The notes beneath the pieces were generated by a model. The model was not told the DNA's origin, ran no database searches, and was given only the letters and a program-made list of their open reading frames with translations. 64,000 bases of DNA. It comes from Armatimonadota bacterium. GTDB taxonomy: Bacteria; Armatimonadota; Fimbriimonadia; Fimbriimonadales; Fimbriimonadaceae. This document shows positions 54,485 through 55,269 of this stretch, one piece after another. The first letter of the stretch is position 1. Every line of letters begins with the position of its first letter. Made by a program: the position numbers and the translations under genes. The DNA is taken from positions 62,001 to 126,000 of the forward strand of contig JANYCU010000037.1 of the NCBI GenBank assembly GCA_025360125.1, given 5' to 3'.

Positions 54485-54579
54485 GTAGGATTCAGCCCTT
54501 CCGACTCGCACACGATATTTTCGATCCGACCAAAGGAATCGCGTGCGAGCCACCTTCCCATTCATGGGAAGGACCTTAG
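54485..54579 (-). repeat. Two-hairpin element, copy 1 (inverted)
   Basis: On the reverse strand it reads GGTCCTTCCCATGAATGGGA(AGG)TGGC, then a second stem CTCGCACGCGAT/ATCGTGTGCGAG, then GGAAGGG. It starts 4 bases after the GH172 stop and may act as its terminator. Related to copies at 54656 and 55178. Confidence 0.75.
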
Positions 54580-54655
54580 TTTTAAAAAATTCCAAACGTT
54601 TTGCGCTGAGAATGTGCTTTGATCGTAATTCAAAGCAACCGGTCATTTACTCGCC

Positions 54656-54748
54656 AAGATCCTTCCCATGAATGGGAAGGTGGCGCATCGGTCACTCCAA
54701 ATAATAGAATCAATCTTGACCGATGCGACGGAAGGGTTGAACATAGCA
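54656..54748 (+). repeat. Two-hairpin element, copy 2
   Basis: Hairpin 1 is CCTTCCCA-TGAA-TGGGAAGG. Hairpin 2 is CGCATCGGTCA/TGACCGATGCG, perfect. It ends GACGGAAGGGTTGAACATAG. It lies 28 bases before the DUF559 gene start. Stem 2 differs in sequence from copy 1 but still pairs. Confidence 0.8.
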
Positions 54749-54775
54749 GGAAACAAAATTGGATAAGATAGCTCC

Positions 54776-55174
54776 GTGGAGCCTGAAAATCGAGACCATT
54801 TTCCACCGCTAACCCAAAAGCAAATCAGTCGATCACGACGACTCAGGCAAGAGATGTCTCTGCCCGAAGTATTGCTTTGGCAATACCTGCGACCCAAGAA
54901 TAACAAGGACTTCCGCTTCCGACGGCAGGCCGCACTTCTTCCGGGCATTACCGCTGATTTTTTCTACGCGGCTCTCCGAATTGCATTTGAAATCGACGGC
55001 CAAATCCATGCTTTAAGAGAAGAGGAAGATGAACTGAGAGACGCAAGGTTGAGAGCCGCCGGATACACAGTAGTCCGGATTCCTGCTCGAAATGTCCTAA
55101 AGAGTCCGAGCGATGTCGCAGATTATGTTCGATTGATCTGTCTAGGTGAAATTGGCTTTGACGAATTAGACTAA
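54776..55174 (+). CDS. DUF559 endonuclease-like protein
   Basis: 132 residues from a GTG start. The fold is that of Vsr-like PD-(D/E)XK nucleases: 'LWQYLRPKNNKDFRFRRQAA', catalytic-type Asp in 'ITADFFY', and the Glu-x-Asp of 'IAFEIDGQIHALREEEDEL' followed by 'RAAGYTVVRIPARNVLKSP'. TAAGAT lies six bases before the GTG. The gene sits between copies 2 and 3 of the two-hairpin repeat and its stop is three bases before copy 3. Family members are widespread, with mostly unknown roles. Confidence 0.85.
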   Translation: MEPENRDHFPPLTQKQISRSRRLRQEMSLPEVLLWQYLRPKNNKDFRFRRQAALLPGITADFFYAALRIAFEIDGQIHALREEEDELRDARLRAAGYTVVRIPARNVLKSPSDVADYVRLICLGEIGFDELD

Positions 55175-55177
55175 GCA

Positions 55178-55269
55178 AAGGTCCTTCCCATGAATGGGAA
55201 GGTGGCGCATCGGTCATTCCAAATGTTTGAATCAATCTTGACCCGTGCGACGGAAGGGTTGAACATTAG
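55178..55269 (+). repeat. Two-hairpin element, copy 3
   Basis: Nearly identical to copy 2 in hairpin 1 and in the end GACGGAAGGGTTGAACATTAG, with differences in the loop of hairpin 2 and one base in its stem. Directly after the DUF559 gene. Confidence 0.8.

Follow-up and report, generated by a model that had tools for sequence, protein, structure and literature searches.

The window, a 64,000-nt stretch of contig JANYCU010000037.1 from an Armatimonadota bacterium of the class Fimbriimonadia (GCA_025360125.1), contains a small gene of the DUF559 family that is surrounded by three copies of one repetitive element, of which the first, inverted copy follows a GH172 gene (Table 1). A 24-nt core, CCTTCCCATGAATGGGAAGGTGGC, occurs exactly three times in the window and never in shuffled sequences. 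Each element combines two hairpins with a further arm, and thirteen copies collected from the same genome align as CCTTCCC-loop-GGGAAGG-TGG-[11-bp stem, loop of about 22]-AC-GGAAGGG-ATGATT. In these thirteen copies hairpin 2 is paired in 98.6% of all cells, whereas slid registers give 21-35%, 9 of 11 pairs show changes on both sides, and the covariation score is 0.747 against 0.202 for shuffled sequences. The sequence-only reading, which had described three copies around a DUF559 gene, a fixed hairpin 1 and a covarying hairpin 2, was thus correct in its observation, although three points require correction. Copy 3 has an imperfect hairpin 2, hairpin 1 is fixed only among the three copies of the window and varies elsewhere in the genome, and the GGAAGGG taken for plain flank is a third arm of the element.

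Table 1. Features of the DUF559 locus in window coordinates; R1 denotes the covariance model of the element.
Feature	Position	Strand	Description
Element copy 1	54490-54572	-	Inverted; R1 match 77.7 bits, at 116490-116572 (-) of genome contig C54
C-arm of copy 1	54566-54572		+ strand coordinates
G-arm of copy 1	54553-54559		+ strand coordinates
Third arm of copy 1	54496-54502		+ strand coordinates
Element copy 2	54661-54742	+	R1 match 90.5 bits; folds at z -5.4 as single-stranded DNA
Hairpin 1 of copy 2	54661-54680	+	C-arm CCTTCCC 54661-54667, G-arm GGGAAGG 54674-54680
Hairpin 2 of copy 2	54684-54727	+	11-bp stem CGCATCGGTCA/TGACCGATGCG; sequence varies between copies, pairing kept
Third arm of copy 2	54730-54736	+	GGAAGGG, mirror image of the G-arm (purine-motif triplex layout)
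DUF559 gene	54776-55174	+	132 aa; PF04480, E 2.9e-22; predicted Vsr/homing-endonuclease fold
Element copy 3	55183-55264	+	R1 match 86.5 bits
Third arm of copy 3	55252-55258

A covariance model of the element (R1) was used to search the genome and found 47 copies at E<=0.01. Whether the copies are enriched beside DUF559 genes, scattered at random or placed next to a RAYT transposase had been put forward in advance as a check, and this was tested in the genome. Of its 11 DUF559 genes, 8 have a copy within 300 bp, with the nearest copy 54-97 bp from the domain match in each case (P about 4e-14 against random placement), while none of its 22 Y1_Tnp (RAYT-type) genes does, the nearest lying 2.4 kb away. 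In spite of a similar overall layout, mobilization of the elements as REPs by these Y1 transposases is thus refuted for adjacency and highly unlikely overall, the more so as there is no GTAG tag among the invariant positions of the 13 aligned copies. Note that the palindromes, if any, that flank the Y1_Tnp genes were not examined. A total of 34 of the 47 copies are solo and lie away from any DUF559 gene, whereas several DUF559 genes (loci L002, L003, L007 and L008) lie between two outward-facing inverted copies. In G009, a sister genome, a single gene is set among six copies that are largely arranged as inverted pairs (locus L201, 2239-3652, on contig C45).

We further studied the distribution of element and nuclease in 113 genomes of the class. 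At E<=1e-5 the element was found in only three of these, the genome of the window (G000), G009 and a further genome, G002. The closest homologues of the window protein lie in the first two, and these three are exactly the genomes with members of the same DUF559 clade. In a tree of 58 DUF559 proteins, the nine genes flanked by R1 elements fall into one clade of 13 with three label changes, against 8.6 for shuffled labels (0 of 500). Support values in this tree are modest because the protein is short, the four remaining members of the clade (L196, L197, L202 and L203) have no R1 match near them, and in G002 the R1 copies are not adjacent to a DUF559 gene. Within the genome of the window, 8 of 8 genes of the one clade are beside R1 elements and 0 of 3 others are. 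DUF559 genes of other clades in the genus are flanked by distinct palindromes of their own, often with the same sequence on both sides.

In order to assess whether this pairing is general, we analyzed 80 named DUF559 loci from many phyla, among them Pseudomonadota, Chloroflexota, Verrucomicrobiota, Bacteroidota, Nitrospirota, Planctomycetota and Bacillota. The same repeat was present in both flanks (score >=20) in 72% of these loci, but only in 1.9% of 269 offset pairs from the same contigs. A gene-based control was not informative, as the longest open reading frames chosen in GC-rich DNA were spurious, but a stricter scan of positions yielded 47% of loci at the gene against 0.4% of other positions. 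The R1 model, although built from a single genome, found elements in sphingomonad and related loci at E values down to 8e-6, and the 17 best matches lie within about 500 bp of the DUF559 gene. Elements of Novosphingobium and Alteriqipengyuania read GGGGAGGTGGCA-[hairpin]-TGACGGAGGGG, close to the GGGAAGGTGGC-[hairpin]-GACGGAAGGG of the window.

The sequence GGAAGGG that follows hairpin 2 is the mirror image of the G-arm GGGAAGG. In 30 copies of the genome, the third arm matches the mirror of its own G-arm in 7 of 7 positions in 23 cases, where A may face A or T as in purine-motif triads. The sum of matches is 199 against 177 +- 3.7 when third arms are shuffled (0 of 500), while a direct repeat (173 against 171.9) and an inverted one do not exceed shuffles. 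Several arm classes agree (GGGAAGG/GGAAGGG, GGAGGGG/GGGGTGG, GGAGAGG/GGAGAGG and GGGGGAG/GAGGGGG), but as related copies are not independent, the shuffle count is not a probability. The third arm thus covaries with the G-arm, and the layout is that of the G/C-rich intrastrand triplex motif (TM, PIT or Box C) described for E. coli and more than 260 genomes, which was shown to fold in vitro, is linked to instability and had no mobility gene found beside it (PMC4666352). As in that motif, the element is intergenic, present in many copies and arranged in inverted pairs. It departs from the loops of 1-6 nt that define the ITxF search, as the loop between G-arm and third arm is enlarged to about 49 nt and holds the covarying hairpin 2; by that definition it is a variant and not a member. 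Triplex formation in solution was not measured for the element of the window, and in vivo footprints did not show a stable triplex at the E. coli motif (PMC4666352). Among the named loci, 58 of 73 DUF559 genes have a triplex motif with perfect 7-nt arms within 250 bp, against 15 of 289 windows further off (p 1e-38), and in the order to which the genome belongs the figures are 26 of 53 against 2 of 68. For arms that are not their own mirror image, mirror third arms occur in 91 loci and direct ones in 63. A role as a structured RNA, considered in the sequence-only reading, is not supported, as no Rfam family reached its gathering score, sub-threshold matches to MIR7696 merely reflect the inverted pair, and the layout is that of a DNA triplex motif.

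The DUF559 gene of E. coli K-12 is ycjD, located between sapF and fabI with triplex motifs downstream. It is present at this position in 3365 of 5426 complete genomes and thus absent from 38%. Those genomes without ycjD that were read carry the eef efflux operon instead (PMC12817139) and are therefore not clean empty sites, and the 5.5 kb read from one such strain hold no such motif by the same scan, although strains without ycjD still have a few similar copies elsewhere. In addition, ycjD has a near-perfect palindrome (CACCTCATTCTGACAA...TTGTCAGAATGAGGTG) at its 5' end (locus L294, 1950-2570). This exchange of ycjD for the eef operon, together with the greater variability of E. coli triplex-motif loci relative to controls (PMC4666352), might suggest that the motifs are passive hotspots of unstable DNA in which DUF559 genes are merely frequent passengers. 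We consider this improbable, as it does not explain why each DUF559 clade carries its own element type. In N. gonorrhoeae, a DUF559 gene that appears to be NGO0050, identified from the match and not from annotation, is flanked on both sides by direct repeats of a triplex-like element, CTCTCTCCC...GGGAGAGAG...AGAGAGGG (locus L271, 2350-3210).

Empty sites in sister strains, likewise named beforehand as a check, were sought at several loci. At the window's own locus, G009 retains GH172 and the cytochrome-like gene side by side with a gap of 215 bp against 961 bp and without any element. At the pntAA-pntAB junction of sphingomonads some species have a gap of 62 or 116 bp, while others hold a DUF559 gene with elements (367-905 bp), in one case with an internally deleted gene; in S. 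parapaucimobilis plasmid NZ_CP155755.1 the cassette with inverted elements sits inside this transhydrogenase operon (locus L272, 2423-2875). No clean empty site was found at base resolution, since intergenic DNA of the sister species G009 is too diverged and 370 kb of three sister genomes yielded too few copies. A site that holds a DUF559 cassette in genomes G015 and G001 instead contains in G018 a different inverted-repeat insert of about 100 bp (GGAGTGCGGAAACTTGTTACC...), perhaps another mobile palindrome (locus L236, contig C1 of G018, near 1511800). No target-site duplication was found in 30 copies at any boundary offset, nor was a target consensus. Decayed DUF559 genes with stops also occur in the genome of the window.

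The window protein matches PF04480 with 79.1 bits over a cut-off of 20.6, and D61, E72, D74 and H78 are invariant in 35 sequences; their role as catalytic residues is inferred from the Vsr fold. An AlphaFold2 model based on 35 sequences (pLDDT 90.5) predicts a Vsr-type PD-(D/E)XK fold, and its nearest folds are 3hrl, 3r3p and 1cw0. The best match is 3HRL, the structure of NGO0050 (Z 13.0), followed by homing endonuclease I-Bth0305I (Z 11.4, 3.1 A over 94 residues), the Vsr-DNA complex (Z 9.9) and TnsA (Z 6.5). YcjD was already treated as a PD-(D/E)XK member in 2005 (PMC1189080). A search for defence systems returned only weak PADLOC matches, and a tblastn search of phages with the window protein gave no match.

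The resemblance to Vsr raises the question of whether DUF559 is a host repair enzyme, either a VSP-type mismatch nuclease or a maintenance nuclease that removes hairpin or triplex DNA and stays near the motifs for regulatory reasons. A DUF559 protein of Caulobacter, VsrA, is linked genetically to a cytosine methylase, is genotoxic in vivo and causes an SOS response when the methylase is lost, and is proposed to act in VSP repair; no palindromic repeat is mentioned in that study (PMC12907096). The genotoxicity of this protein also counts in favor of the selfish cassette described below. No linked methylase was recognized among the open reading frames read at 50-60 kb of the window, but the genome as a whole was not searched, and this observation does not decide for or against a VSP repair system. 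With up to 11 paralogues per genome, patchy occurrence, decayed copies, clade-specific flanking elements and presence or absence at the same site, a host repair function appears unlikely. A more serious rival is homing alone, in which the elements spread by other means such as replication slippage or repair, and DUF559 is a homing-endonuclease-like gene that cuts existing copies and is copied into them by gene conversion through the flanking copies, parasitizing the repeats. The fold of the nearest characterized protein, the position of genes between two copies and the coexistence of gene-borne and solo copies are in line with this view. Note that in contrast to I-Bth0305I-like genes there is no intron or intein, and the gene lies between repeat copies rather than interrupting a conserved gene; cleavage of empty alleles was not assayed. 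The restriction of the element within the class to genomes with the matching DUF559 clade is not expected if elements spread alone, and the sister species has no solo element at the site of the window. We therefore regard homing alone as a tentative alternative, less likely than the reading given below, although it could also operate together with it.

The reading that we favor, with a probability of roughly 0.6, is that of a selfish cassette in which a small Vsr/homing-type PD-(D/E)XK endonuclease lies between copies of its own cognate DNA element, a single strand of which can fold into an intrastrand R-R-Y triplex. In this view the nuclease would recognize the folded element of its own clade when it is single-stranded during replication or repair and cut at it, and repair or copying from that break would then duplicate the element, alone or with the gene between two copies. 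Our analysis shows the association of element and nuclease, its clade specificity, their joint distribution, the triplex-like covariation, the presence and absence of the cassette at one site and the predicted fold, whereas it is by inference only that DUF559 cuts the element and thereby spreads it. No cleavage, binding or movement was observed, and a PD-(D/E)XK nuclease alone is not known to carry out transposition. The interpretation of the sequence-only reading, a different kind of mobile unit or a structured RNA tied to DUF559, is thus supported in part, namely in the link to DUF559 rather than RAYT and in the absence of the cassette at the same site in a sister species, as expected of a mobile unit. 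Its conclusion that covariation means selection on structure was overstated, as template switching between the arms of a DNA palindrome can also keep stems perfect, although such switching does not obviously produce a mirror-image third arm. The third arm, the generality across phyla and the fact that the repeat class is already known as an intrastrand triplex motif had been missed.

The closest working analogy is the REPtron of RAYT/TnpA-REP and REP sequences, which shares with the present cassette a single small nuclease gene flanked by palindromic elements, inverted pairs, dispersed solo copies and a clade-specific pairing of enzyme and element. The enzyme, however, is an unrelated PD-(D/E)XK protein and not a HUH tyrosine transposase, and the element is of the triplex type. 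While the repeat class is known, the link to a nuclease and the hairpin-bearing variant appear to be new, as no paper that ties DUF559 or ycjD to repeats was found in the open literature, subscription papers and preprints not being covered. In its widest form, which we consider about as likely as not, DUF559 nucleases including E. coli YcjD and N. gonorrhoeae NGO0050 are the cognate mobilizing enzymes of bacterial intrastrand-triplex repeats, a class of selfish element widespread over bacterial phyla in which a Vsr-like nuclease recognizes folded triplex DNA. The origin and spread of triplex motifs, of which E. coli K-12 has 23 copies, are described as unanswered (PMC4666352), and DUF559 is a domain of unknown function found in many phyla, so that tying the two together gives both a testable role, in E. 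coli K-12 itself through ycjD. If the nuclease reads a folded triplex, this would be a new mode of DNA recognition and perhaps a tool. The triple-arm covariation is also comparative evidence that the third strand matters in vivo, a point that footprinting did not settle.

CGTC-tagged REPs are a further family without a known transposase (PMC3733652), and in reverse orientation hairpin 2 of the window element reads CGTC-stem-GCCA. The last C of this CGTC is paired here (C-G in 13 of 13 copies) rather than part of an unpaired tag, and the element measures about 82-90 bp instead of 20-40, so that its relation to these REPs is left undecided by the comparison. Yet another arrangement is found at locus L004 (1150-1450), where a DUF559 gene is preceded by a tandem duplicated unit of about 115 bp with a palindrome of a different sequence.
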